DNA of 64,000 nucleotides, from positions 9,279,001-9,343,000 of the forward strand of contig NC_092562.1 of assembly GCF_037975245.1 (NCBI RefSeq), given 5' to 3'. The stretch's first letter is position 1; each line of letters starts with the position of its first letter. Made by a program: the position numbers and the translations under genes. Below, one piece after another: positions 9,920 to 37,298 of the stretch. The notes below the pieces were generated by a model. It saw nothing but the letters and a program-made list of their open reading frames with translations. It was not told the origin of the DNA and did not search any database. This stretch comes from Apostichopus japonicus. Taxonomy: Eukaryota > Echinodermata > Holothuroidea > Aspidochirotida > Stichopodidae.

Positions 9920-12900
9920 CAGGCCTCAAAATTTTCTTTTAAAAGTACTTGCCATTTGGCGATCGTGACTAAAAATTCTATTCGCCAAAATGAAAAATTC
10001 ACTCGCCACTAGTAATGCTACTTAAGCTTCAGACTCCATATTTGTCCTTGTAGAAGTGCAAAAGCAATTTTATAACCTTTGAAGCTAGTCATACTGTACA
10101 CACAGCTAAATAATGCACGTTGGAAGATGTTGTTTCTGTGCAATACGGAATTTGAACTTTGTCTCCCTAAACAAAAGCGGTAAACAATGTAAAATATGAC
10201 ACAGAAAAATACTTTAAATAGGATGACTCATAAAGACCACCTATTTTGTTGCAACCAGTTTACAAGGAATGTCGTCACATACAGTAGGCCACTGCCTGGC
10301 TACTTGGATTTTGTAATCATTACTGTAGTACTGCTAGCTAGGCTCGGGGAATAGGGTCTAGCCCACTACGAATGTGAGCCATGACTCCCTATTTTAGTTT
10401 TAAGTTACTTTCTTGCTGCAGTTAGGGTTAATCAGCTTTTACTCCACTACAGACATGCTTACATGATTACATCATGAAATAATATGTTAAATGCATGAAA
10501 AATCCATCACTGTTAGTGTATGCATGTGGGTCAATCCATGCCAAATCAACAGTGGCCTCCACGTCGACCCTCTCAGAATCGCCTGAAATTGATATAGTGT
10601 CTTGCCATATGTCTCAAAGGATGAAATTGGGCACAAAAAAAATTTAAAAATTTTTCGTTGCTAGGATACGGCCCCGCCTAGCAACCAAATCCAGATTGCA
10701 TTTTAAGAGCCCTAAATTTGTGTCAAGTTTGGAGGCATTTTTTGCATAAATGTAAAGTATCTTATGTCTGATATTGCAGATATTGTGGAAGACAGGTGGC
10801 CAGTCTTCGAATTTAGCTAATTTTGAGGAAAATTTACGGTCTCAATTTTTCGTAACAAGTAATTAAAATGGCAGAAAATGAGATTGGGGTCTTTTCTGGC
10901 CCTACTTTGAGTGTGCTCTATATTCACAAGCAAAGGCATGTTTGAGTTTTAATTTCCATAGGATCCTTGTCCAGTGGTAGTACTACGGGAAAAGTGCGAA
11001 AAGAAAGTCAAGCGGGTCGTACGTTTTACGAACAGCGCCCTCAAATTTAAGAAATCTCACTTCTGGCCCTAATTGGGGGTCCATTTTGGGCCTGTGGGTA
11101 TATTTTTATTTTTTTTTAAATAGCATTATTCAGGAGCGTATTGACCCTATTTTTAAAAACTCAAGTCAAAAAGTTGTGTATTTTGTGTTATCTACTCAAA
11201 TTTACGACTCGAAAATTGCAAAAATCACTTCGTTCATATGTATGAAAATGCTTGCACAAGCCGATTTAAGTAATTCAAATGACAACAACTTCTTAGCATT
11301 AGCATACAGGTGCTTAACAATTAAGAGGGTGGTCCACTAGCATAAGGACTACAAATAAACTGCATTTTCAGGGTTGTATGCCCAACGATGCCTGTGAACA
11401 GCGCCCTCAAACATCACATTTTACCAATATTTTGGGCATTTCAAGGTCAAATTTGGTCACAATTAAAAGTTTTATTTTTGGTTTTTAATACAAAACTAGT
11501 AAGATATGTATAGTTATGATGCAAAGAATGAGCTAAAACATCTTTTATATTAGTTATTCATGCTCTGATGAGCAGCTTAAAGTGGCGTATATGAGAGTTA
11601 CATCAGCTCTACAGAAACATGCTTGCGAGGGCAAACAGTGGTAACATTGTATCTTCATTCAGGGAGATGTTAAACAACATTAGAGACTATTCAAATGTAT
11701 TTATTAAAAGTGTTCTGTCTAATACTCTTTGACTCCCTCTCACCCAGAAGATTACCGTACCAAAAAATTCAGTATACCTTAAATGCATGTTTATGCAGTC
11801 TCTATGCAGTAAAAGTCAGTCACATACTGTATGTATACAAATCTGCATAGTGCACTATGGGGAGGGTGTTGGGGAGGGGGGGGGGTGAGAGGGAGTCAAA
11901 GAGTATTAGACAGAACACTTTTAATAAATACATTTGAATAGTTTCTAATGTTGTTTAACATCTCCCTGAATGAAGATACAATGTTACCACTGTTTGCCCT
12001 CGCAAGCATGTTTCTGTAGAGCTGATGTAACTCTCATATACGCCACTTTAAGCTGCTCATCAGAGCATGAATAACTAATATAAAAGATGTTTTAGCTCAT
12101 TCTTTGCATCATAATTATACATATCTTACTAGTTTTGTATTAAAAACCAAAAATAAAACTTTTAATTGTGACCAAATTTGACCTTGAAATGCCCAAAATA
12201 TTGGTAAAATGTGATGTTTGAGGGCGCTGTTCACAGGCATCGTTGGGCATACAACCCTGAAAATGCAGTTTATTTGTAGTCCTTATGCTAGTGGACCACC
12301 CTCTTAATTGTTAAGCACCTGTATGCTAATGCTAAGAAGTTGTTGTCATTTGAATTACTTAAATCGGCTTGTGCAAGCATTTTCATACATATGAACGAAG
12401 TGATTTTTGCAATTTTCGAGTCGTAAATTTGAGTAGATAACACAAAATACACAACTTTTTGACTTGAGTTTTTAAAAATAGGGTCAATACGCTCCTGAAT
12501 AATGCTATTTAAAAAAAAATAAAAATATACCCACAGGCCCAAAATGGACCCCCAATTAGGGCCAGAAGTGAGATTTCTTAAATTTGAGGGCGCTGTTCGT
12601 AAAACGTACGACCCGCTTGACTTTTTTTTCGCACTTTTCCCGTAGTACTACCACTGGACAAGGATCCTATGGAAATTAAAACTCAAACATGCCTTTGCTT
12701 GTGAATATAGAGCACACTCAAAGTAGGGCCAGAAATGACCCCAATCTCATTTTCTGCCATTTTAATTACTTGTTACGAAAAATTGAGACCGTAAATTTTC
12801 CTCAAAATTAGCTAAATTCGAAGACTGGCCACCTGTCTTCCACAATATCTGTAATATCAGACATAAAATACTTTACATTTATGCAAAAAATGCCTCCAAA

Positions 12901-15130
12901 CTTGACACAAATTTAGGGCTCTTAAAATGCAATCTGGATTTGGTTGCTAGGCGGGGCCGTATCCTAGCAACGAAAAATTTTTAAATTTTTTTTGTGCCCA
13001 ATTTCATCCTTTGAGACATATGGCAACACACCATACCAATTTCAGGCGATTCTGAGAGGGTCGACGTGGAATCGACCCAAAAATCTGTTGATTTGGCATG
13101 GATTGACCCATGTAACAGTGAAGCAAAGCCTAACAACTTGGCAGTTACATCCTTTGGCTTAAATGTTATTTAAGGAATATAATGATAGCATTTCATGACT
13201 CTTCAATCAAAATCAGATGAAAAAACCCAGCTCTTATAAAGTGACAGATTTATTGTAGTGGATGCAAAACTGTAATGAAGCTACTAACCGATTCCAGAAC
13301 CTACAACCAACCAAAACAGTCCAACATACTACACTAGTGATACTTGCTTTACAGTAGCCCACGTCCAAAGAAATCAGCAAAATGGTTCTGATATGAAACC
13401 CAAAGATATCTGAGGTATGACTGAGAGATTCTAGGATACTACGTATCTAGGTATTCCACTGTTTAACTCTCCTTACTTAAAGAGTGACTTTATTGTCAGG
13501 ATGACTTAAGTCAGATGCTTAGTCTTGATAATATGTTGCAGTTCACAAAAAAAGAAAAAAACTTACATGAGAGAGCTCAAACTCTGGAGTGCACCTTTAA
13601 GGCTTCAGACATGATTACATACAGTAGGCTACACAATACTGCCAGACCTAAATTTTAATAATCCACTGTTTTATCAATTCTAATAACTCAACTCAAACAT
13701 GTTATTCATATAAACAAGAAAGCATCATCGGATGACATATAACTCCATTTGTTCTTGAATAATGTACTATAAATATGTCATTTGAAGCCATAAACATCTT
13801 ACAGTATGTTTTCTCAGTGAGCAATATGTTGCATCTATCGTACCGAACTGACCTTTATGTCAGTGGTCCAGTCACTTTAGTTGATGACCCCGCTTGCTTG
13901 AAGGGTCATTTCTCAAACATGAGAAGTGTTGTAGAAATCCAACCTGGACTGATAGCAGTGTGTTATAATGGTCTACAACATTTCAAAGTTTGTGACTAGT
14001 GTATCTCCAAGTTCAAATCTCTCTCTCTTTCTCTTGTGCTTTCTTTCGTATAGGAAGGGCATGTCTGTACTAGAATTAATTACACACCAAACAAACTCTC
14101 TCAGTGGCCATTGGGCTTCTGTACATAAAACTCAATGCTAAAAGGCTGTAGACCTAGCTGTAGCCTACAACAGAAATGATGAGGAACATTTTAATGCTCA
14201 TAACCCAGTGAAACAACACCATTATGATAAGCATGGGTTCTGCCTTAGCTGCCTCATATGAACGGTGACGGATATTATTAAAATTTGAACGTTCGTCCAT
14301 AAATTGCAGGACAGAATACATAGCATGATATTAAATACCAGTCTAACTTGGCTACAAACTAGAGAAACATGCTGAAATGTAATGTGACATATATTCCTAT
14401 ATATATTCCATATTCCCAACTTCCAGAGAAGACACTCTATAATAATACAAACTTGAACTACAACAAACCTACAGTCACAAGCTTACTTGTTGTGATGAAA
14501 ACGTGAGAGGAACCCAGGGGACTGACCAAAAATGTTACTACCCCGTCCAAGCTGTTACCACCCTGTCAAGAAACTCCTAACGAAAAAAAACCTTGTTCTC
14601 CGTTTTCAATTACATTTTAGAAAAGAGCATCTATCTTCCACTTGCAAACTGGTATTGAGTGAAACACTTTGAAACAAATCCTAGCAGCAATAACAGCAAA
14701 CTTGTTTCAAAATTCCTGAATTTGTCGTATATTTTGCGAATTGTGACATGTAGGAAATGCCTTAAGAAATAATTTAGATGTTTGGCCACCTTAAGTGTTT
14801 TGGTATTCTGAACACAAAACGTTTTACCAAAATGACAGATAATCGTGTATTGTCGATTTGGTTTCTGCAGATCAACTGTAAGATAGCGAACCATTTTACA
14901 CAGTTAATTCGCATTGAATTGATCATTGATAAAAATTAGTTTACACCGTAAACTTGCTTCAAGCCTGCTTTTCATCATTCTGTGAAACGTTTGTCACGAT
15001 AACCTTGCTAATCTTGGGGTTTGACTAGCACACGAGTCACTCGCTAAATGTCAAGCGTAGTGCATTTTCTATTCATCAAAGCTAAAATTCTACTCGCCAG
15101 CATATTGTCAACGGTATTTGTCGAGGCCTG
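9920..15130. mobile_element. Possible hAT element (CAGGCCTC ends) carrying a nested foldback
   Basis: The left end at 9920 reads CAGGCCTC and the right end at 15130 reads its complement. Both have subterminal CTCGCCA/TGGCGAG-type motifs and a shared ...AATTCTA.TCGCC block. The flanking 8-mers (TGAGACTC, CTCTTAAA) do not match, so either the TSD has decayed or the ends come from separate copies. The 10528-13109 foldback lies inside. No transposase domain was recognised in short frames such as 13775-13999 or 14631-14894. Confidence 0.3.
10528..13109. mobile_element. Foldback element: 1.2 kb inverted arms
   Basis: The left arm 10528-11745 and right arm 11883-13109 are near-perfect reverse complements around a 137-bp spacer. 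They encode the same 84-residue frame on opposite strands (11086-11340 plus and 12288-12542 minus). The outer ends are GGGTCAATCCATGCCAAATC and its complement. ATGT stands immediately outside each end (10524-10527 and 13110-13113), a candidate 4-bp TSD. Visible differences between the arms are a few substitutions and about 12 bp missing near the left tip, so the duplication or conversion looks recent. The spacer holds a G-rich tract at about 11860-11885. Confidence 0.88.
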
Positions 15131-21677: not shown

Positions 21678-21988
21678 TATGGTCAGGCACCTACCCACAA
21701 AGGTTGAAATTGATTGGACTTACGGTCTAGGAGGAGTTTGCAAAATTTAGAGCAATTTTAGCTTTAACCTATACATTGACCTTTGACTCCGACCCTTAAC
21801 AACCACATCAGTACTAATTTCAAATTTGTCCCTTAATTATCTACATATCTTATGGTGTAACGCCTTTTGGGTAATGATTGTATTTGACATATGACCTTTG
21901 ACCTATGACGTTATCAATCACGCAGGCACGAGGTTACATGGCCAGGCACCTACCCATCAAGTTTGGTCTTGATATGACTTAGGGACTA
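21678..21988. repeat. Degenerate ~256-bp direct repeat split by the CACTA element
   Basis: The phrase CAGGCACCTACCCA(C/T)... followed by a GA(C/A)TTA.GG.CTA motif occurs at about 21684-21731 and again at 21940-21988. The second copy is interrupted after GGGACTA by the CACTA element and resumes at 33951 with TAGGACAAGG. The uninterrupted first copy reads GGTCTAGGAGGAG at the same place. Confidence 0.6.
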
Positions 21989-22014
21989 CACTCTAAAAAC
22001 AGTTGGTTAAAAAA
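21989..22014. repeat. Left terminal inverted repeat of CACTA element
   Basis: Starts CACTCTAAAAAC and ends in GGTTAAAAAA. It pairs with 33926-33950. Confidence 0.9.
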
Positions 22015-23248
22015 TTAACCAATACCTTAACCAACACTGGGCACGTATGTCAAATTCGACTTATTGGTGAAATTTTAACCAACACCTGTTGGTGAACGGC
22101 TTTAACCAGCCGTTGGGTAACATTTTTAACCAATAAAATAACTATAAGTTTGTACCCAACAGTTGTTGGTTAAATTAATTGTGTAAATTATGCCCATCAT
22201 TGGTGAACTTACAAAAGTAGGGATCATTAAATTGGGGAATTAAAAATCATTGTATTGGGCAATTACTACATTTAAATTGGGCAGTGGCTTTTACCATTAC
22301 AAAAGGGTTGGGCAGTTAAATGAGCCTTCATTGCCCAATATATGTCGGCGAATGCAATAAATTGGACAGTGACGGATGAGATCCTCAGTGGATTTTACTT
22401 AATGTAGTTGAAAGACTCCTCACAAGTTTTGTTTATGCAGACCTAGTTTGCAACAATCAGTTGAATATGGCAATGCAAAGAGTAAACAATTCCTTGAAAA
22501 ATATTGAAAAATTAACAAACAGGTACATTACAGAAGCCAGATGGATGACATTTTGAGAAGATGTTTTTATTGAAAACAATAACCAGCTGAACCATGTGAA
22601 TAAAATACAAACAAAACAAAACAACACATAAATATGCTTGGATGTAACAACTTCTTAGCTGTGCTCTATCAGACCTTTAAGGTGACACAATGTAAAAAAC
22701 CCTCTACCCTTCAAGAAGAACCTTATTCATAGAAAACTTGTAACACTCAATATCTCACATGTGTAACTATAGATCAATTGATGCATAAACAATCTATGAA
22801 TCTAAACATCAATCATGATCTGATTAATCAAGGTTTACCTATAGTATATATACAGTTAATTAAGAATTACATTGAGTCTCACATACATATGTGGTGTACA
22901 TGATTACATTTAGAGACATATTTATGATATGTGCAGTACATTGCAGCCAGCGCATTGTTCTTATTTCCAGTTTTTGGATGTATAGTATATATATCTTCAC
23001 CACATATAGAGATACATGTGTAGGTGAAATTAACCTACATTAAACCTTACTCACTCATGAAAGAGTTGATTAGATCGGGATTCCAATAAAAATTAGTAAG
23101 GAAAGTTTTGATTTGTACCAGCATGGTATGTAAAAATATGTCATATCATGAGTTTTAATTAAATGTCCCTTCAAGATGATGCTATCGGGTGTGTGAATTT
23201 TAAAATAATAATATTATACAAACTTCTTGCTTACAATTATTATATGAG
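22015..23248. other. Subterminal repeats and 3' noncoding part of the transposon
   Basis: TTGGTTAA/TTAACCAA motifs cluster at 22010-22170, and TTGGGCA(A/G)T motifs repeat at 22250-22380. Such subterminal arrays are the usual transposase-binding zones of CACTA elements. The remainder to 23248 is AT-rich with no exon. Confidence 0.6.
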
Positions 23249-23587
23249 CTTCTTGCTTACAATTTCCTTTTAAGGCACTTCTTACTTTCCAGGGCCAAGA
23301 ATGCTATAATACAACTTGGCATATGTGCTTCTTTGATTTCATAAATCACATTTTGAATGAACTGCCAAACAAGACTGCATGAAGGTCGATAAGCCATGTC
23401 CAAAATGTACATTTGCCATGAAACAGAAAAAGACAGCTTTAATAGAAGAGATTTGTGAGAAACTGACCTCTGTTCTAAAATAGCAAATATCTGGGTTGGT
23501 ACCAAGAGGGCTCCTTGCATACAAAAGTAGCTGCAGTATTTTTGTGGCATCAATATCCTTTGAACTTTGTAAAATATCAGCCATGAA
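23249..23587 (-). pseudogene. Decayed tandem copy of the SAM gene's last exon
   Basis: This block repeats the terminal exon (23620-23937) base for base over most of its length. The same ADILQ start, IDATK, GTNP/APTQ, YILDMAY, SCLVWQFIQNVIYEIKEAH and PSCI phrases appear, but split over two frames (23339-23584 and 23257-23553). At least one small indel lies near the GCAGC...TTTTG position. It follows the intact exon directly with no clear acceptor of its own, so it is more likely dead than an alternative last exon. Confidence 0.65.
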
Positions 23588-23619
23588 TATCTTGCTTACA
23601 ATACTTTTCTTTTAAGCCA

Positions 23620-23937
23620 CTAATTACTTTTAAAGGCCAAGAATGATCTAAGATCTCTTATGCAACTTGGCACATGTGCTTCTTTGATTTCATAAATCAC
23701 ATTTTGAATGAACTGCCACACAAGACAGCATGAAGGTTGGTAAGCCATGTCCAAAATGTACATTGCTTTGAAACAGAAATCGATAGCTTTCAGTAGTGAT
23801 TCTTGAGGGACTGGCCTCCGTTCTAGTATAACGAATGTTTGGGTTGGTGCCAAGAGAGTTCCTTTGCATACAACAAATGGCTGCGGCTTTTTTGTGGCAT
23901 CAATAGTCTTTGAAATTTGTAGAATATCAGCCACTTC
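23620..23937 (-). CDS. SAM gene exon 10 (last)
   Basis: Acceptor TTTTTCTCACAG. It codes 105 residues (EVADILQISKTIDATKKPQP ... CLVWQFIQNVIYEIKEAH ... FKSN) and stops with TAG at 23620. A decayed duplicate follows at once. Confidence 0.78.
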   Translation of the reverse strand, partial: EVADILQISKTIDATKKPQPFVVCKGTLLAPTQTFVILERRPVPQESLLKAIDFCFKAMYILDMAYQPSCCLVWQFIQNVIYEIKEAHVPSCIRDLRSFLAFKSN

Positions 23938-26900
23938 CTGTGAGAAAAATTGAAAAAAATGGAAATTATCACAAGCTGCTCTTTGTCAATCAATATGAAG
24001 TTGTGACAGCAAAAAGCTCTCCATTCTAGCAGATTTGTATTTAGAAAAAAACTTTACATGAAATTATACTTGGCACAGCCAAACTTCATAACCACCCATA
24101 TCTCTGCTTACAATGACATGCTAGTTTTAAAAAAGTACTATGAACGTTTGATACATTTGAAATTTACTGTTTAGTTATCATGTTTAGAAGATACTTTTAC
24201 TATCATTAACTTTTTATCACCAACTCATAATTTATTCCTAAAATCAGCTATACATGTGACCCATTTCCTACTACTGTCATTTACCAAATTGAGCAAAATT
24301 TGACAAGCATATTGTTGTTGTGAAATCAATATTTACATAATATTATGTAGGCCCTGCCCACTCATGAATATTAATTATCCATTTTGAACCAAACGGAATA
24401 TGGTTCATGTGCTTGGGAGCATCTATGTACATTGACACAAATCCAGCATAATTGTTGATATTCCACTTTAACAAACAATCCATCACAAACTACAAAACAC
24501 ATATGTCATAAGCATGTTGTCAATGAACTTCAACAAGTGGACAAATGAATGCTTAAACACCTACTGGTTGAATGTCCACGAAGGAGGTGATTGCCTCTTT
24601 TACTGAACACAATCCTTTCTTTCCCTTTCCTTTCCCTCTCAAGATGACTGGAAGAAGAAAAAATGCCAATGTTTTCTTCTTATCTGTAAAAGTGACAAAA
24701 CATAACTAAAGATAGGTCCAAAGTCCTTGTGCATAAAAATATAACACAATTAATGACCACTTAACATATAAATTGTCATTACCACGTATAGTGCCCGTAC
24801 AGCACAAATTATATGTATTTTCTCTTGCCTTTATTTGTCTCTAACACTAGAAGTCCTTCAAGTCATTTGTATCAGAAAATGGCATATCATGAGAATGCAA
24901 TGAGAAAATGGCATATCATGAGAATGTAATGAGATAAGTTAGCATCTGTTTGGTATTTTGTGTATGTTTATTTTCAATCATACATGTCTCCTTTAAAAGC
25001 CCACATTCATAATGTTGTGCTGCTATCACAACCTGTTTGCAAAGTTATCTACTCTTTATATTTTATTATATATTCAGATCTCAAAACACTGATGAACCTT
25101 TGACATATTTTGTGTTCTATTGTTCTATTATAGTAGTCACTAGCTTTTGGCTTAAATGAAATCCCAAAGATGGGTCAGATGGAGTCTAAGCAAGGGAATA
25201 TACCTGCACCAACTCAACTTGATTTCTGTCTGAACCAGATCCCATTGATGCTTTTTGTTCAATTTCAGTTTATTATTTTTACAAAAAAAGAAAGGAAGTG
25301 TTGTTGTCTTTACAAAAAGTAAACTAAGGCTATTTTGAGAACAAGATCAGATATATTACAGATAATTGGTCAAACCTGATCTTTCAGAAGTTCCTAGTGT
25401 GATGGTGGTGAAAGGTTGCAAGGAATGATCAACATACAAAAATTAAATTAGCTCAACTATGCGCACTGAAATAAGAAGCACACTTACCAATAGACAAACT
25501 CTCTAGGTTAACGTACTCCAATCCAAGAATGCCTTGCCAATTTTCAACCTGTTTGCCATATTCTATAATCCCATTGTAGTACAAGTCCCATTTCTCATAC
25601 AGGTGATCCTCATGCTCAGGCCAAAGCACTGAAAAATCTTGTTCTATCTGACAGAGCAAAGGGAAATAGAATACTTTAATGTGTGTAAGCATGTTCTATT
25701 TTTGATCCTCAGCTAGGATCCATTAAAAAATCAGGTGACATCCCTATGTTCCGACGTCTCTATGTTCCGACGTCTCTATGTTCCGACGTCTCTATGTTCC
25801 GACGTCTATTAGTTCCGACAAATTGTTTGGACTTTTTGACCAAATTTGACCAAATTTTATTTGGACCCCATTTATGACCCAATTTTTTTTCGGACCCCAT
25901 TTTTTTTTGTACCAAAATTTTTTTGGACCCAATTTTTTTTTGGACCAAACTTTTTGTGGACCCAATTTTTCGGACCCAAATTTTTCTTGGGACCCAACTT
26001 TTGGACCAAGTTGATTTCTGACCAATTTTTTCCCTGACCCCTAATTAGGTCCCAATAAAATGGGTCCCAAAAAATTAAGTCCGAAAAAATGGGTCCCCAC
26101 AAATTGGGTTCCACAAAAATTAGGTTAAAAAAAAATTGGGTCCACAAAAAACTTTGGGTGATGAAATATTGGGCCAGAAAAAAATTGGGTCCGAAAAAAT
26201 TTGGTCTCAAAAAATTTGGTCCAAAAAAAATTGGGTCCAAAAGAAATGGGCCCGAAAAAACTGGGTCCGAAAAAATTGGGTCCAAAAAGAATGGGGTCCA
26301 AAAAAATTTGGTCAAAAAAAATTAGAGTCCAAACAATTTGTCGGAACATAGAGACGTCGGAACATAGAGACGTCGGAACATAGAGACGTCGGAACATAGA
26401 GACGTCGGAACATAGAGACGTCGGAACATAGAGACGTCGGAACATAGAGACGTCGGAACATAGAGACGTCGGAACATAGAGATGTAACCATAAATCACTC
26501 TCACTGAATTTGTTAAAGTCTGGTTCCATGCATCTATACAAACACTATGTACTGTTGAAGCTGGATGTGGAAAATCCAACTGCTTGATACCTTTTGCTAG
26601 TTTAATAACATTTAGTAAACATCTGGGAAAGAAAAGTAAGTATTTAACATTTATTGACAGATGCTTTGAAAATATCTCAGAATACTGCTCATATTTTTTC
26701 AAAATATTTTTTTAATGTGGTGGGGGGGGGGATTTGAGTTGTAAAAATTCAATATTTAACATTTGTGATATCATCACTGAACAAAAGCATATTCATGGGA
26801 ATAATTTATCTTGTCTCCATGTAGCAAGATGATAGACAAGTTGTTAGATTGGTACACAATTGCAAGAAATGCAGAGCAAACATTGCACATAAAACCATGG

Positions 26901-29900
26901 CACTGAATGGCAAAGACACCATATTAAAAAAAAAAAAAATTTGTACAAATTGTAAACCTTATTATACCGCTTGAATCTGTACCTTTTTTCTACACTAAGC
27001 ATCAGCAACCTTTCTTAAAATCCTAGCTATATCCCTGAATAAAGCAACATTTTCATCCAAAAATAACATTTATTCCCAATCTGGTCTTTATAATGCATCC
27101 TGATCTGCCAGATGCCTAAGGTTAAATTAAAAGTCAGTCACTTTTCTTCACTGTGTGGCTGATTACTGTCATAAACTTCCAGGCATAAATTAAAAGAGAT
27201 TTAAAATATAATGCCATCATTTAAAGAAAGCAGTGAAACTAGTTCTTTCCAATCAAACTAGATATGTAGTCAATCAAAGTACTGTTTTTAAGTTGGCCAA
27301 ATAGCCTTCAAAGTGAAATATAGTATTAACTCATCAGTGAGGTTAGTGACTTAATTAATTTCAGTGTTTCTGCTAAATCAAAACCTCGCTAGTAATTTTT
27401 CCACAAGAGATAAAGGATATGGTCTTAACAGTATCTTCGTAATATGTGTATTCAGAGCTCGCTTCTTTACTATTTTTGATGCAAAATCACCCACGTATTT
27501 CTCTTTAATTAAGCAGCAAAAATTCAAATTTGATAGTTACCATTCCACGGTCTAACAACCTGGGATACTCTTTCAGAATATCTGAAATGTTAGTTGAGTG
27601 GTCTTTGATCTGTTGTTGTCTGTAAACTGCAGTTTGCCTCATGAAGTCCAATACTTTCTCTCTTGGTTCCATGTTACATTTCAGCCACTCAGTCATCATC
27701 ACCAATTCCTCTTTGTTCTCCAGATCAGCTTCTGGCAAGGACAATAAAAACATATATTTCCTACTAAACAGAGATTCCTTAACATCAAATTTTGAAGTTA
27801 CCAATGGTTGTGGCAGGTATAACATGTCCTAAGCCAGTCTTTGATCATTGTCATGGCATGAGAGATAAGTCAAATCCTGAAAATAGTTGGTAAAAACCTA
27901 TTACACGGTAAAAACCTATTACACACCTCTCAATGTTGGTGGAGTGGACACTTTAGTCAAAGGAGTAGGTGGACTTGATGCACCGGGGGAATCTTTCACC
28001 ATGGCAATCTTCTTTTTACATACGTAGCGTAGGTGCTCTTCTAGATACCCTGTCGCCGGTCGTCCTGCAGCACCTTTGCAATACCATGCTTCCTGCACAT
28101 GAAATCAGCATACTCTTTTATCAAACTGAAGTATGGTAGCAAAATTCAAGTCAACTCAGAAAATTATGTGACTTATTGATCTACATGTAAAGCTGTTGTA
28201 CACCAACATTTAAAACTTCCTAGCTGGTTGGAACATACGCTTTTAGCCAGCAAACCACAGACATGTCTGGTACATGTTCCACAATGGCACGGTAACAATA
28301 CGGACGCTATGACTAAGGACATTGTGGCACTCCATACCGTCCTCACAGAATATCGTATGCTTACTGATAAAACAGTATTGTCCCAGGGGACACTATGACA
28401 CTTGCTTTTAAGTGATAAGCCTAAAAGTAATGGGTTTGACCCTAATTGCACATATAATCAATAAGTTACAGAATTCTGATATTTTATGGAATAAGGAGGG
28501 TACCTACTGAACAACAAACTTCATTAATACCTTGGTTAGATTTAGAGATTAAGCCCATTGAAAACAAGTGCCTATGTTACAGTTTTTGGAGTTCCCAATG
28601 TGACAATTGAACATCCATTTTGGTATTTTCAACATATTAAAAGGCCTTCAGTTAAATGATGCCTATATAATCATGGTAGTATTGAAAATAGATTTCAGTA
28701 TCACAGTCCTCTATGAGATGAACAAATTACTTGGTACAACCCACAGAAGATTATATTACTTGACTACAGATGACAAAAAGTAATGATATTTTGGGCAGTG
28801 TTTTGTGTTCAACATTTTAGAGACATTTTGAAAGGGCAGCTAGGAAAAGGAAACTAGTCACCTCAACACTTCCAAAAAGTCATGCATAACATCAAAGTGG
28901 TGTATACTATGGCTAATGACAATTAAGCCGAGGGATATTAGAACATAAACATGCTTACATAACCCAAGGGAGATGCTGGATCCTTCAGAAAGGGAAACAA
29001 ATCAACAACTGCTGCTGCTAACGCTGCCTTAATGAAGGAGCTTGGCCTGTAGATTAAAAAGGAAATAGGTAAAATGTTGACAACAATACAGCAAATGTAT
29101 TCTATCTATTGAGAATTGAAACAATTCATTCAGAAACATAACCATATTGAATATTTTTCATTATAAATTCTATTAAAAATATCTCTTGGTCTCCAGGGCA
29201 TTTCAAAATAGGGTACAGCCACTTCTCTGTGTTTATATTAGAAGGGTCTGCTATTCCCATAATATATCATAGTGAATATACTCACTTATCTCCATAATGA
29301 TCAACCATGTGACTAGTACAAATTTCCACAAGAATGTGTCGATCCTGTTTTGAACATAATTTCTTGCAAGAGATGCTTCCCATGACTTTCCTTCCTCTGG
29401 AAGACTGGCCTAGAATAGCTTCAACATCCTAAATATCAAATATGAGAAGAGTGTGAATGGGCCAGTATGTAAATTAGAAAACTAAATTTATTTGGATGCA
29501 TAGAATGTTAACACTACTGACACCTATAGACTGAATGGTGAAGGTGCAGTATGGTACCAAAAATCACCAACCTATATGCAATTACCTCTGCCATTCAATA
29601 AACTTTAATTTTTTATTATTTCTATTATAAACTTATTTCTGTATCGTTTTCTGATAATGATCACTTTGAGTCCTCGCAGGGAGATTCATCACTTCCAGAG
29701 CTACTGTACAGTAGTTCTTTCATAATGGAAAGTTTAGGGGTAATCTCTGGTATTCACAACAAAACCTCTTTTCTCATTCAAAGCATGCACCATACCTTGC
29801 TTTCATAAAAAAAGAAGTAGCCTCAACCACTATAAGATGTTAATAACTACGGTACTTTTCACTAAAAACAATAGAATATCCTTTACTTACAAAATGGATT

Positions 29901-32900
29901 CTTTTCTGTCATTTCAAGGGATATGGTGAATGGAAGGGTGAGTAAGATGAACCTTCAAGTGATGTGTCTGCATCTGATTCAATAATCAAGGTATCAACAC
30001 TAGTACTTGAATCGCCAGTAGTAGAAACATCATCTGCATCTGAGAGAGATGATACATCTGGTATCTCATCTTGATATAGAGGAAATTGGAAGACCACTTT
30101 ACTCTGAAACTGGGAGAAAATTAATTTATAATCATGTAGGTTATGACTAAATAACTAATTCACCTGCAGTGGTACAACTGATGCTGTGTCTATAGAAAAG
30201 TGATGCGAGTAGAAATGTAATGAGATCTGTCATTCCCATTATGATTCTTCAAGCAAGTCACAGGACGGTGGTCAAACAACTGTCTAGGACAAACAGTTTC
30301 AATTAAGTCTGATGTGGTTTCCACAGCATATGCCTGTAAATGTCTCTGGAAGCCTATCGTCTTGAATAAGTTCAGTACAATATAAATATCAGAATTTTTT
30401 AGAAGGACACATTGCACACTTCCAAATTCTGGTCCATCGTCATTCCATGAGGTGATAACTGCAGTTCCTTCTCTAAATTCATAACCATGAATCTTGGCTG
30501 CTCCTACAAAAGTTATCTCTTCTTCTAAACCAATGTTCAGTTTTGCAGCAACTATTTCAGCTGCCATCATGTCTAAAATTGATCCTACTCTTGACAGGGT
30601 GGATACTTGCTCCTGATTTAATTCTATGTCTTGATTTTCAAGAGGTTGTTCCAAGAGAAATGCATAACACTGGGCCATTTGGTATTTAACTGCCAGTGTT
30701 TTAGCAATGTTCTGGAAATTACAAGACAAATTTGCAAATTTTTTGAATGTTTTGTGTTTTCCCTCAAAACGCATTGAGGTGTACTGATTCAAAGGTCCAA
30801 GGAATCGCAATGATCTTGGATAGTGTGTAAGAAAATGCTGTTTTGGAGTAAGGTTCCGATCTGGAAACAATTGGAGAAATAGTTGGTGATGATCTCTGAT
30901 CAAAGCTTTCAGAACATATGTTGCAGAGAGGCTCAAACTGGGACTCATTATTATCTTGAAAATATCAATCAACAACAGATACAACTCCCATGCATCAGAA
31001 TCTTCTTCAATTTTATCTCCAATCATTATGGGTAAACTGAAAGCTAGGCACATCATCTGTGAAGCACTTTGTCCACTTGCTTTTCCAGGGTTTGAAAGAG
31101 ATGATTGTTTCAAAGGACTAGGCTTATTTGACTGGTCAGTGAAGCCATAATTAAAACATGAAATTCTACCATTAAGTTCCTCCAAAGTAAACTTTTTTTC
31201 CTGAATCAGCTGGTCTAACACTAAGTACATTTCTAACGGTATCACTCCTTCCAAAAAGTCATGCATAACATCAAGAGTTATGTTTTCAACTACATGAAAC
31301 TCTCCCAGATCATTTAGAATTGTAGCAAATCTGATACCTGTCTCACTAGGGTCATCATGTTGTAAATCTGCAACATAATTTTCTACTGTTCTAAGTAGAC
31401 TGGCATTTTCAACTAATTGTTTTTGCAGTACACTTCGATGCCCCTTGCAAAGTCTACAGTAATAGTTTGCTGTAAAGCCACGAACATAGCCTAACATGGT
31501 ATGTATACCCAAGTTATCGCCAACAACTTGGAACAAAACCGGCCTAACAAGTCCACTGAAATCATCCCCTTCTATATTCAGACATGCATTCGATAACATT
31601 TGAATTTCTTCTTTTATTACTTTCACAACACTTTCTACTCCATATTTGGTAATGAGAGATGAGGTGATTAGAGCTGTGAGAAGAATGTTGTTTAATCTGG
31701 CCTGATATCTCCTGGGTAGACACAGCACATTTGTATAAAATGCTGAAATCTTATGTTTTCCTTTCCTTGAACCAAGAGGGTTTGCAGTCTCAAAGTCATC
31801 ATTGTATAGCAGCAGGGGTATAAGAGGCACTTCACCATGCTGTTGATACCTATTTTTGAACAGAATGCCATCTCGATATGTAACCAGGACATTTGGATCT
31901 GCAGATGCTTTAGCTGAAAATATTGCATTCATAACTCCTGGTTGTTCCAGAAATTTTTTAAGTGAAATTGCCAAAGGAATGTACTGAAATGTCTCTTTCT
32001 CTTGTTCTTGAATTGGAGCTCCTGTTTTATTTATTTTAGACTTGAAACAGTAGCCTAGAAGTTTTTGTTCAGGTTCAACATATGCACCAATATGCTTGAA
32101 AAGTTTCCTCTGTTGGTATTCTGTTCTCATTTCAGAGAAAGGAGCTTCCCTTGCATTGGAAAAAATATTGTGAAAGTCTTGCTTATCCTCTTCCTTTCTC
32201 AATAGTGTGGACTGCTGGTTACTTATTAATCTAGTAATTTCCATTTCAATATGATCAACTACATTTTCAATTAGGTCCTGTACATCAACAATAATTTTTC
32301 CCACTAATGATGAAGGAATAGGTGAGGACTTAAGTCGGGCTGTGAATATTGCATATGATTTAGCTATGTTGATATCATTTTCCATTGATTCTTCATCATC
32401 TTCTTCTGCCTCATAATGTGCATCTGCTTCCATTGGAATGGGACTGTTCCTTTCTGGCTCTTGGTCCCCCTGGTCATTAGTTTGTTCTTTATTACCCAAG
32501 TGGTGTCTGTTGAGATGCCATTTGTAGCCTTCAGTTGAAAAAAGAGTGCAGTGCAACCAGCTTGACCACAAATAATTTTACTTGAGTTTTTTGAGTTAAT
32601 TCCATGGTTATGCTTCAAATGGAAAAATAAGCCTTTGATTCCACCTCCAGTTCTTGTAAGACATTTAAAGCATGTAAAATCCATTGCTGATATACAGGAG
32701 TACTCACCTCCTTCTTCCAACCTGCCTGAAATTTTAGTCTGTCACCAATCTTTGGTATCAGATCCCTTATGTCATCTTCTTTAAGCAAAAGAAGTGCAGT
32801 TTTGTCAATTCCATTCTCTGAGGGTTATAAGAAAGGAATAAATCATCAGCATGCACACACTATCTACAAATATCACTATATATGAAATATGAAGAAATTC

Positions 32901-33647
32901 TGACTTAATGAATAATGGTTGTCTAGTTATTGCAATTTGAAAATTTTGATGTTTGATCCTGTGACCTCATTAATGTTCATGATATGACTCCAAAAACAAT
33001 GAGGTTTATGATCAATCATTCCCTTGTTGAGTTATCATGCAAAAATTCTCATAAATATCCTCCAAAATATGTATGATATAAATCAAAATAAAAAAGTTTG
33101 TGGCATCACATTTGATCTATCCTTAGCCTAACTGTTATAAGTGTGTAAATAATTAAACAGGTGTATACACTAGGCTAGGCTACCTATACTATAGACAGTA
33201 GGTCAAAGTTTTTGTATTTGGACTTTAATAGGATACCACATTTACATTAATAATTAGGCCTAGCCTATGTCGATTACACGAACAACACTAGTATATGGTG
33301 AAAAACACGAAAAAGATTCATAACATTTAACATCGAATAAACCACTGTGTTAAACACAGTGGCAGTTTAGTAACTGCATACTGTTACTAATATTACTAGT
33401 GTTACTATAGTATTAGGCATAGGCCTACTAGTAGTATTATAGTACTAGTATTAACGTTAGCCTAGTATAAGCCTAACGTTGGCCTCTGAGCCTAACGTTA
33501 TACTGTCACTGGGGGGTCTCAGTGCCCACATAAGTTTAAACTTTTTACCGATGTTAAGCTACACTTACCGATAAAAGTTTCATGTAGAGACTCGATCTCG
33601 TATTTTTTCAAGAAATTCAAGACAGCACTGTCTTCGATATCTGCCAT
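23620..33647 (-). CDS. SAM-domain accessory gene of the CACTA element (10 exons)
   Basis: Joined exons (minus): 33647-33569, 32817-32708, 30109-29891, 29428-29286, 29046-28959, 28092-27927, 27731-27541, 25647-25488, 24683-24565, 23937-23620. They sum to 531 codons. Every junction has GT/AG and agrees in phase (1,0,0,2,0,1,0,1,0). Residues about 5-60 form a SAM domain (NFLKKYEIESLHETFI, then NGIDKTALLLLKEDD and PKIGDRLKF), a helical protein-interaction module. An acidic Ser/Thr/Asp-rich linker follows. Next come regions that I recognise from multi-copy uncharacterised SAM proteins of fish and invertebrates (GRKV, GYLEEHL, WLKCNMEP, DILKEYPRLLD, LYEKW, FFLLPVIL, VWQFIQ). One in-frame TGA stands at codon 130. 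The function is unknown; I infer an accessory role in transposition or silencing evasion. Confidence 0.78.
24565..24683 (-). CDS. SAM gene exon 9
   Basis: Acceptor TTTTACAG. It codes DKKKTLAFFLLPVILRGKGK, then a Lys-rich stretch and SVKEAITSFVDIQP. Donor CCA|GTAGGT, phase 0. Confidence 0.72.
24874..24931. repeat. Tandem duplication of 29 bp in intron 8
   Basis: Two copies of AGAAAATGGCATATCATGAG plus nine more bases, one mismatch. Confidence 0.8.
25488..25647 (-). CDS. SAM gene exon 8
   Basis: Acceptor GCTCTGTCAG. It codes IEQDFSVLWPEHEDHLYEKW and a Tyr/Glu-rich segment to NLESLSI. Donor G|GTAAGT, phase 1. Confidence 0.77.
25749..25819. repeat. Five 16-bp repeats, left arm
   Basis: TTCCGAC recurs at 25749, 25765, 25781, 25797 and 25813 (unit TTCCGACGTCTCTATG). 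They are the inverse of the array at 26340-26483. Confidence 0.92.
26340..26483. repeat. Nine 16-bp repeats, right arm
   Basis: GTCGGAACATAGAGAC repeats exactly every 16 bases from 26340 to 26468. The unequal copy numbers (5 versus 9) show that the two arms expand separately. Confidence 0.92.
27541..27731 (-). CDS. SAM gene exon 7
   Basis: Acceptor CCTTGCCAG. It codes a helical region (EELVMMTEWLKCNMEP, EKVLDFMRQTAVYRQQQI, DILKEYPRLLDRGM). Donor ATG|GTAACT, phase 0. Confidence 0.78.
27927..28092 (-). CDS. SAM gene exon 6
   Basis: Acceptor CATGTGCAG. It codes EAWYCKGAAGRPATGYLEEH followed by a basic segment and a Pro/Ser/Thr-rich tail. Donor G|GTGTGT in phase 1, completed as GAA by exon 7. 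Confidence 0.75.
28869..28895. repeat. 27-bp exact match to the transposase gene, in intron 5
   Basis: The 27 bases here are identical to 31248-31274, in the same orientation. In the transposase gene they code LDVMHDFLE, the most conserved-looking motif. Homology stops abruptly on both sides. Confidence 0.9.
28959..29046 (-). CDS. SAM gene exon 5
   Basis: Acceptor ATCTACAG. It codes PSSFIKAALAAAVVDLFPF, then LKDPASPLGY. Donor TAT|GTAAGC, phase 0. Confidence 0.75.
29286..29428 (-). CDS. SAM gene exon 4
   Basis: Acceptor ATATTTAG. It codes DVEAILGQSSRGRKVMGSI..., a Cys/Lys patch, then ...EICTSHMVDHYGD. Donor AA|GTGAGT, phase 2, completed as AAG by exon 5. Confidence 0.75.
29891..30109 (-). 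CDS. SAM gene exon 3, contains in-frame TGA
   Basis: Acceptor TTTTCTCCCAG; the alternative TTTCAG six bases on keeps phase. It codes a Ser/Asp-rich linker (DVSSLSDADDVSTTGDSSTS...), then SPYPLK, TGA (29911-29909), QKRIHF, and donor TTT|GTAAGT in phase 0. The frame is open on both sides of the TGA and phases match exon 4, so the TGA looks like a single substitution or a read error. Confidence 0.65.
30190..32684 (-). CDS. CACTA-type transposase with N-terminal C2H2 zinc fingers (one frameshift)
   Basis: The ATG at 32684 opens MDFTCFKC...HLKHNHG, a first C2H2 finger. The second finger starts ICGQAGC in this frame but its histidines (GYKWHLNRHH) lie in the frame that then runs open to TAA at 30190. 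The switch falls in a six-base T run (A6 on the plus strand, 32538-32543). The long frame has no ATG before 32433, so the finger start is needed. Counting from 32571, landmarks are YNDDFETANPLGS (256-268), VGDNLGIHTMLG (350-361), a CRLC knuckle (372-375), LDVMHDFLEG (433-442), KQHFLTHYP (577-585) and MRFEGKHKTFK (600-610). I know this layout from animal EnSpm-type transposases. Catalytic residues cannot be assigned safely. The gene lies inside intron 2 of the SAM gene, same strand. Confidence 0.78.
32708..32817 (-). CDS. SAM gene exon 2 (SAM domain, second half)
   Basis: Acceptor CCCTCAG, then AG completing Glu27. The exon then codes NGIDKTALLLLKEDDIRDL and PKIGDRLKF, the typical C-terminal half of a SAM domain. 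Donor GAG|GTGAGT, phase 0. It ends only 24 bases before the ATG of the transposase gene. Confidence 0.8.
33569..33647 (-). CDS. SAM gene exon 1 (SAM domain, first half)
   Basis: ATG at 33647, 303 bases inside the right end of the transposon. It codes 26 residues (MADIEDSAVLNFLKKYEIE...) and ends G|GTAAGT in phase 1. The next exon completes the codon as GAG. Confidence 0.78.
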
Positions 33648-33925
33648 GGCGTTAGCTGTATTCTTGATTACTGAACCACCCTGTCAGGGATCGTACTATG
33701 CATGACGTGTAGTGTGTGTTATAGACGCTGCGCTGATGTACGTACAGTGTACATATATGTGTACGCGCGAATTTTTTACTCAGTGAGCGGTAAAGTTATA
33801 AACAAGTTGGTTAAACGTCGGACTGTGAAATGTACATACTTATTGGAATAGCCCAAATACTGCCAGTTAACCAACTTAAGGGTACAAACTAACCAATTAA
33901 GTGCACGGGGGTCCTATACCATTCT
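33648..33925 (-). promoter_or_regulatory. 5' terminal region of the CACTA element, likely promoter
   Basis: The 278 bases between the right TIR and the SAM gene ATG contain ACCAACTT/TTGGTTAA subterminal motifs (about 33800-33900) and a CG-containing stretch (33720-33790). Any promoter for the element must lie here or in intron 1. No TATA box is certain. Confidence 0.4.
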
Positions 33926-33950
33926 TTTTTTAACCAACGTTTTAAGAGTG
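33926..33950. repeat. Right terminal inverted repeat of CACTA element
   Basis: The complement reads CACTCTTAAAACGTTGGTTA plus AAAAA. It pairs with 21989-22014. Confidence 0.9.
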
Positions 33951-34964
33951 TAGGACAAGGTCGCGACACACTTTTCTTGCTAACACACTCACACTTCCTC
34001 ACATTTCTGATCTGGGGTGAAGTACAATACCTCATCTCTCAATACATTCCATGTAGGGAGATCAGGTAATACATCGAAGCATATAATACCAACTGCGCAT
34101 TCGTATATATTCAAGGGAACGAAGTGCCATTTGGAGCCCGAATAGCTTTTTTTGAGACCGACTTGACGCTGCAGCATTTTGTAGGAAAGCAAACAATACA
34201 AAAACAAAAATGTGTGAGAGATAGAGAGGATTCACTCAATGGAATCCCTGCGGAAGCTACAACACATTTATATATTTCTTGTTCTCTCTCTCACCCCCTC
34301 CCACCCCTCCCTCGTATGTAAGCCCCTGCGCATGCGCAAGTGAAATCGTAGGTAATATTAACCACAAGCTCTCTTTTCTCCGACGTCTTTATTCTCCATA
34401 AAGATCACATATTTCGAACAGGAATGCTTATAAAAAGAAGAGGAAGAAGAAATACAATGAACTCTCTCTTACAATTTTTACATCAAACCTAAAAGAGAAA
34501 GAAATTACCTAACATTTAACAATTACTTACCTCCTTGTCGTTATCAATATCCATAGTTTAATCGAGATCGGGGGAAAACAATTTCTCTAACAGTCAGTAA
34601 GCATATTTGGAAAATATTCAAAATAGCCGTTGCAAGGTTTGTCTATTGAATCAGCAACCAAAATACCAATACTGAGAAATACGCATGCACTGACAACAAA
34701 AAAATCTTCAATGAAATATATAAAGATTTCAAGTTTTCTGAAGAAGTCACTCTCTTAACATCTTTTGCATGCATGGCTTCAACAGAGCTCTTCCAGTCTA
34801 TGTTTAATAAACTAAAATACATGTGAAAGGGTAAACATTATTGCATACGTATTTTCATTATAAGTCTTCTGTAATGTATTCTATAGTATTCTGAAACTGC
34901 ACATGGATCCCTTTCTTCAATTGTTTTCTCAATCATTCTGTACACATACATATACATAGCGTAT
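33951..34964. other. No gene seen
   Basis: Flank right of the transposon. The first bases continue the interrupted 256-bp repeat. The rest is AT-rich with no exon chain. Confidence 0.35.
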
Positions 34965-36255: not shown

Positions 36256-36332
36256 TAAATATATATCTATCTTTTAAAAGTTAAAAAAAAAAAATACCGA
36301 AATAGTTATCACGTAGAAATATTATCTACGTT

Positions 36333-36715
36333 ATCTGCTGCCACCAGTCTGTATCATTTCGATATGTTCAAAGTATTCTTCGCACCCTCCCCCCCCCCCC
36401 ACTTCGGTCCCCTCACCCTTCCCTTTCCATGGTATAGAGTATCACCGGTCATCTGCTGCCACCAGTCTGTATCATTTCGATATGTTCAAGGTATTCTTCG
36501 CACCCTCCCCCCCCCCACCTCGGTCCCCCTCACCCTTCCTTTTCCATGGTATAGAGTATCACCGGTCATCTGCTGCCACCAGTCTGAATCATTTCGATAT
36601 GTTCAAAGTATTCTTCGCACCCCCCCACCTCGGTCCCCCTCACCCTTCCTTTTCCATGGTATAGAGTATCACCGGTCATCTGCTGCCACCAGTCTGCATC
36701 ATTTCGATATGTGCA
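36333..36715. repeat. Minisatellite, 110-118 bp units x 3.3
   Basis: Units start with ATCTGCTGCCACCAGTCTG at 36333, 36451, 36568 and 36678 (the last partial). Length differences come from a poly-C tract inside each unit (CACCC...CACTTCGG). The Pro/Ser-rich frames across it are repeat translations. Confidence 0.95.
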
Positions 36716-37298
36716 ACATCTTCATCCTCCTCACTGTACACTGGATTCCGATGTGGATGACCGTTCTGTGAAATGACGTCATGTGATGTTAAAGTGATAA
36801 ATTAACTGTTGACAGATCAATATAAAGCAAAGAGGACCAAATAATGAAGTCAATCACTTTCCTTAATTACTTTCAGTAAATAACGGGAGAATTTCAATAA
36901 AGACATATATTAATAAATAGTGAGACACAATGACGGGACAGACGAACAGATGGATCAATGGATAGTTTCCCCGTGAGTTAGTGAGGGCGGTATTGAAGAA
37001 CTTAGCATGCATAGACTCCGGGGTGTGACCTGATGAATTCACTTTGGCTTCGGCTTTGAGTACATGCTGCCGTGTTGGACAAATCTAACCGTATTAGTAA
37101 TTACCGACTTTGCGATTCGCGTTATAGTCATTGTCGACTTTGCAATCCGCGATACCCCTCCCAATTTTGCAAGGTCGGTATCTGGAGTGACTGGAGTGAC
37201 TCCAAAGTATATACCATATCAGGATTAGAGGAACATGCTTTCGTAATTGGCAAGTTTGAAAGTTTACTTTAAACCATTTATTTTTTACACAAATTGGC

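Follow-up and report, generated by a model that had tools for sequence, protein, structure and literature searches.

The 64,000-nucleotide stretch of Apostichopus japonicus DNA analyzed here (contig NC_092562.1; hereafter, the window) encompasses a segment bounded by inverted ends, within which a predicted ten-exon gene for a SAM-domain protein encloses, in its second intron and on the same strand, the open frames of a zinc-finger transposase. The features are as follows.

21989..33950, both genes on the minus strand: entire element of 11,962 bp, delimited by inverted ends and flanks
21987..21988 (left) and 33951-33952 (right): probable target-site duplication TA, flanks GGACTA-element-TAGGAC
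33780..33950, minus strand: 5' end of the element in gene sense, TIR and subterminal TTGGTTAA cluster, three TTGGTTAA/TTAACCAA sites
21989..22200, plus strand: 3' end of the element in gene sense, TIR and subterminal TTGGTTAA cluster, six TTGGTTAA/TTAACCAA sites
23620..33647, minus strand: predicted gene for the SAM-domain protein, 531 codons over ten exons (final stop counted), with TGA at codon 130 (exon model, codon usage and a partly agreeing blind splice search)
33569..33647, minus strand: SAM exon 1, N-terminal half of the SAM domain, ATG within GCCATGG
32708..32817, minus strand: SAM exon 2, C-terminal half of the SAM domain
29891..30109, minus strand: SAM exon 3, Ser/Asp-rich linker with the in-frame TGA
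29286..29428, minus strand: SAM exon 4
28959..29046, minus strand: SAM exon 5, absent from the chain found by the blind splice search
27927..28092, minus strand: SAM exon 6, exon model and blind splice search
27541..27731, minus strand: SAM exon 7, exon model and blind splice search
25488..25647, minus strand: SAM exon 8, exon model and blind splice search
24565..24683, minus strand: SAM exon 9, exon model and blind splice search
23620..23937, minus strand: SAM exon 10 with the final stop
30190..32684, minus strand: transposase gene within SAM intron 2, open frames 32741-32364 and 32577-30190

The termini of the element, CACTCTAAAAACAGTTGGTTAA at 21989 on the plus strand and CACTCTTAAAACGTTGGTTAA at 33950 on the minus strand, pair with each other, the terminal sequence being CACTCTAAAAAC at 21989, with its inverted partner at 33950. 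With 27 nt from the 33950 end as the query, the alignment score at 21989 was 21, compared with no more than 13 anywhere else in the window; none of 200 shuffled windows reached this score (maximum, 18). When the flanking bases were included, blastn recovered the end pair at an E-value of 5.9e-4, with 27 of 29 positions identical; the pair was not listed by blastn without the flanking bases at E-values up to 1, nor by a separate run at E-values up to 1e-3. Both ends carry clusters of the repeat TTGGTTAA, such that 9 of its 13 sites in the window lie within two terminal zones (383 bp together), the borders of which were fixed post hoc, with the sites already seen. Among 2000 random pairs of zones of the same sizes, any one four-letter 8-mer occurred at least nine times in 4 pairs. 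The inverted ends and the TTGGTTAA clusters are new here, and the end at 33780..33950 is the probable promoter side of the element.

The TA that flanks the element on both sides is probably its target-site duplication, as judged from a single copy; in an alternative register, the ends may be TACACTC, with a 4-bp duplication, GGAC. A 51-bp repeat occurs twice to the left of the element: its second copy is the left flank itself (21938-21988), and the first copy (21679-21729) is 78% identical to it. The second copy is broken exactly where the element begins, and a TA duplication fits this arrangement given that the first copy continues through CTAGGA. In this one copy, ends of the 5'-CA..TG-3' form (CACTC..GAGTG) are combined with a probable duplication of TA, or of GGAC in the other register, as in the CMCT (CACTA/EnSpm-Mirage-Chapaev-Transib) clade, where, according to the available part of PMC12730594, most elements have CA..TG ends, duplications are 2-5 bp long and ESTA elements show TA duplications. 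The plant-type combination of CACTA ends with a 3-bp duplication is absent, the fifth base being C and the flanks reading CTA on one side and TAG on the other.

All nine introns of the SAM-domain gene have GT-AG borders and matching phases, and the joined exons amount to 1593 nt, that is, 531 codons. The sequence-only reading, made on the same DNA before this analysis, had described ten exons joined in perfect phase into a 531-codon frame, which holds for the phases but not for the frame itself: codon 130, in exon 3 (29911-29909), is TGA, and 531 codons are obtained only by reading through it. We read this TGA as a nonsense change in this copy because exon 3 is otherwise in phase at both borders and has a GTAAGT donor. 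The claim that the frame starts with a split SAM domain was borne out, the 63 residues encoded by joined exons 1 and 2 matching the Pfam family SAM_1 with an E-value of 1.1e-5 and 26.1 bits, above the gathering cut-off of 23; on the whole 530-residue product, the score is 21.0 bits, under that cut-off. The Pfam search of the protein gave no match outside the SAM domain, and a sequence search of the PDB gave weak matches, the best of them to an ankyrin/SAM protein (E-value 0.3).

When codon usage was taken from the transposase and stop codons were given a neutral score, the assigned frames of the SAM exons reached 121 bits in total, against a maximum of 80.6 in 2000 draws from introns, and the assigned frame is the best of six in 6 of the 10 exons. 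Searched blindly for spliced open frames, the interval 29500-21989 yielded a chain of 1596 nt (100 shuffles: mean 808, maximum 1430; opposite strand, 337), which reproduces exons 6-9 exactly, departs from the model in exons 4 and 10, lacks exon 5 and includes three extra pieces. We rejected the length of an open chain as proof of the gene: exons 4-10 of the model comprise 1185 nt, and at least 5 of 100 shuffles hold longer open chains. Open chains alone being weak, the case for the SAM gene is carried by the codon-usage test and the SAM domain.

Several further features of this gene and of the window deserve description. Exon 10 is tandemly duplicated, with a diverged copy at 23251..23583 on the minus strand that is 82% identical to 23590-23933; this downstream copy contains several indels, and one of its frames is open for 112 codons, with a 64% match to exon 10 over 81 columns. 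The duplication provides no support for purifying selection, the substitutions being spread evenly over the codon positions (17/99, 13/104 and 15/102). Intron 7 contains a foldback repeat (25734..26489), detected through blastn self-matches, with inverted arms of 97 nt that are 95% complementary, 16-bp GTCGGAACATAGAGAC-type tandem units at both ends and an interior of diverged GGACCCAATTTTT-type tandem units; it is probably a later insertion. An acceptor-like site at 26622 ranks third among 720 AG sites by a PWM built from the nine acceptors of the SAM gene, and the open frame that holds it (26322-26711) extends into the foldback repeat; this open stretch may be a lost exon. Outside the element, the window contains an inverted repeat at 10527-13110, with 1.2-kb arms (10527-11745 and 11883-13110) that are 98.5% identical and separated by a short spacer, which is either a recent palindrome or an assembly artefact, and tandem units of about 117 bp at 36330-36743 that are 83-91% alike.

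The zinc-finger transposase lies wholly inside SAM intron 2, on the same strand, and its ATG (32684) is the 24th base of the intron, all as the sequence-only reading had it, but it does not form one frame: a zinc-finger frame (32741-32364) and a catalytic frame (32577-30190) are joined by a frame change that, as placed by eye, falls inside the second C2H2 finger. In the 795-aa frame, the motifs YNDDFE, VVGDN, CRLC, DVMHD, HFLTH and RFEGKH start at residues 258, 351, 374, 436, 581 and 603, respectively. With the catalytic residues picked by eye, without an alignment, C(2)C and H(3-4)H motifs are found between the second catalytic D and the last E (VVGDN, CRLC, HFLTH, RFEGKH); C(2)C and H(3)H motifs in this interval are listed for the CMCT clade in the available part of PMC12730594. 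The Pfam search of the 795 aa matched no transposase family, Transposase_21 (PF02992) included, and returned only a YwqH-like hit (E-value 0.33); the 446-aa core gave nothing at E-values up to 10, and the PDB sequence search gave no match. A single-sequence structure model of the catalytic frame had a mean pLDDT of 33.4 and was unusable. No relative was found among viral contigs, prokaryote contigs and phage records, which are the wrong collections for an animal element. Given the by-eye motif assignment, the lack of a Transposase_21 match or a PDB relative and the failed fold, we file the transposase as CACTA/EnSpm-like within CMCT, as opposed to a proven EnSpm member; the choice of CACTA/EnSpm-like rather than EnSpm proper follows from the CACTC ends and the missing 3-bp duplication, a 2-bp duplication being seen also in SmTRC1.

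The change of frame in the transposase is possibly an assembly error. Both genes look damaged and, given the TGA in the SAM frame together with this frame change, this copy of the element is probably dead.

The SAM start codon is located 303 bp inside one end of the element, and the SAM stop codon 1,631 bp inside the other. Because the gene begins and finishes within the element ends, it apparently travels with the transposon. A host gene hit by a transposon, which the sequence-only reading had named as the outcome that would sink its proposal, is disfavored because the SAM gene and the transposase share one matched pair of ends (21989/33950); nor did blastn, at E-values up to 1, detect an inverted pair around the transposase alone (33568-32685 against 30189-28500), a search that very short ends could escape. 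Some observations do suit the scenario in which the SAM gene is a host gene that this copy captured, or that received the transposon in its intron 2, and plays no part in transposition: many host proteins contain SAM domains, the element is known here from a single copy, and there is a stop codon within the SAM frame. We nevertheless consider this scenario unlikely, given that, besides the position of the ends, the codon usage of the SAM exons resembles that of the transposase and the layout is the same as in En/Spm: a second gene of several exons houses the transposase ORF in one of its early introns, on the same strand and inside the ends.

The sequence-only reading further proposed that splicing acts as a switch, such that retention of intron 2 yields the transposase. 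In its simple form, this switch runs into an overlapping upstream frame. If intron 2 is retained, a frame of 93 codons starts at the SAM ATG, the context of which (GCCATGG) is strong, and the stop of this frame begins at 32617, that is, 67 bases beyond the transposase ATG and in a different frame. Forward reinitiation at the transposase ATG is excluded since the upstream frame stops beyond it, and expression of the transposase would need either leaky scanning or a separate transcription start located 3' of the SAM ATG. Splicing of exon 1 to an acceptor at 32686, just before the transposase ATG, was rejected as a candidate: this acceptor is weak, ranking 469th of the 720 AG sites by the same PWM. 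It keeps the frame with exon 1, for which the chance expectation is one in three.

What can be read from the DNA is a set of CACTC inverted ends, subterminal repeats, a transposase frame with the CMCT pattern and a ten-exon SAM gene enclosing that transposase. On balance, we favor, as the probable explanation, a decayed autonomous-type CACTA/EnSpm-like animal cut-and-paste transposon in which the SAM protein acts like TnpA of En/Spm; points against it include the lack of a Transposase_21 match or of a PDB relative, the overlapping upstream frame in a transcript with intron 2 retained, the unusable structure model, the lack of a 3-bp duplication, the failure of blastn to list the end pair without the flanking bases and the single copy of the element seen. 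The SAM protein is put in the TnpA position because the layout is the same as in En/Spm, and we infer from this analogy that it could serve as an end-binder and regulator. Under this scheme, a promoter near the 33950 end would drive the SAM gene, the fully spliced message would encode the SAM protein, and the transposase would come from another message with a different start or different splicing. The SAM protein would gather on the TTGGTTAA repeats through its non-SAM part, self-association of the SAM domain would bring the two ends together for the transposase, and the protein might also repress or tune the element's own promoter. DNA binding by the SAM protein finds no support in its sequence, in which Pfam matched the SAM domain only, and the zinc fingers of the transposase could be the end-binder instead.

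Animal genes annotated as 'SAM domain-containing protein 3-like' (SAMD3-like), which are present in many copies in fish and invertebrates, encode an N-terminal SAM domain, a low-complexity linker and a conserved C-terminal region, and the SAM protein of the element may be a homologue of the SAMD3-like proteins. A bolder version of the preferred reading, which we regard as speculative, is that the SAM protein, self-assembled on the subterminal repeats, builds the synaptic complex and tunes or silences the promoter, and that the SAMD3-like genes are remnants or domesticated descendants of such transposon genes.

Alternatively, the element's SAM protein might target the host instead of the transposon ends, its SAM oligomer serving as the basis of a factor that acts on chromatin or counters silencing. 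SAM domains are often oligomerizing modules. According to the available parts of the sources, Spm TNPA also restores the activity of a methylated promoter (PMC1636069), and there are fungal DNA transposons with TET/JBP genes, for which the authors discuss a link to silencing (PMC12730594). Pfam found no chromatin domain in the SAM protein, however, and the subterminal clusters suggest an end-binder encoded by the element, though the zinc fingers of the transposase could serve, so that we hold a host-side role to be improbable. Finally, it is very unlikely that the ten-exon gene is partly an artefact of joined short open stretches, with only the SAM exons or some of the exons being real: the long open chains in shuffles, the exact agreement of the blind search for exons 6-9 only, the TGA in exon 3 and the best frame in only six exons would all fit an artefact, but the codon score far exceeds that of the intron draws, the introns agree in borders and phase, even if the borders were chosen to fit, and the SAM domain spans exactly the first junction.

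The copy, then, is a real two-gene transposon whose kind is known and in which the position of the SAM protein is unexpected, and the suggestion of an undescribed two-component mobile system is not supported, given that the nested, alternatively spliced layout has already been published for En/Spm (PMC2613891, PMC1636069, in the parts available). In maize En/Spm, as described in the accessible part of PMC2613891, the tnpA gene has 11 exons and contains the transposase ORF in its intron 1; the abundant 2.5-kb message consists of the 11 tnpA exons, and the 5.8-kb tnpD message also includes the large intron 1 ORF. TNPA recognizes the subterminal repeats, and both proteins are needed for transposition. 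By these accounts (PMC2613891, PMC1636069), the element described here resembles En/Spm in having the transposase ORF in an early intron, CACT ends, subterminal repeats and two genes. It differs in that the host intron is intron 2, not intron 1, the ends are CACTC, not CACTA, the probable duplication is the 2-bp TA, not 3 bp, and there is no Pfam match to Transposase_21; furthermore, the second protein has a SAM domain, which the descriptions of TnpA in the available parts of these sources, the basis of this comparison, do not mention.

The closest counterparts in animals are SmTRC1 and the TRC elements, which share with this element an animal host, a CACTA-like character, a 2-bp duplication and a second protein in a proposed TnpA-like role. 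According to the available part of PMC1636069, SmTRC1 has a 2-bp duplication in 7 of 14 copies and alternatively spliced transcripts, its second protein was proposed by the authors to bind DNA in the manner of TnpA, and the second proteins showed no similarity to other animal or fungal elements in that 2006 survey. In the same account, SmTRC1 is 4.5 kb long and its transposase matches Transposase_21, in contrast to the 11,962 bp and the lack of a match here, and the descriptions of the SmTRC1 second proteins given there mention no SAM domain. Among the matches listed for the open-licence literature, no paper ties a SAM-domain protein to a CACTA element, which is weak evidence of novelty; PMC10924252, in its available part, deals with a host ankyrin/SAM gene.

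The second protein of plant CACTA elements is needed for transposition (PMC2613891, available part), and its animal counterpart has so far been obscure. A SAM protein fixed in this position, if confirmed, would provide animal CACTA elements with a recognizable accessory protein and a testable route to synapse; it would also hint that transposons, not their hosts, own some of the SAM genes found in many copies in animals. The accessory genes that we met in the parts of the sources at hand are TET/JBP (PMC12730594) and RAG2 beside RAG1 (PMC4411706), compared with a SAM protein here. The nested layout is already known from En/Spm, as far as the sources at hand describe it, and the SAM protein in the position of TnpA is the unexpected part.
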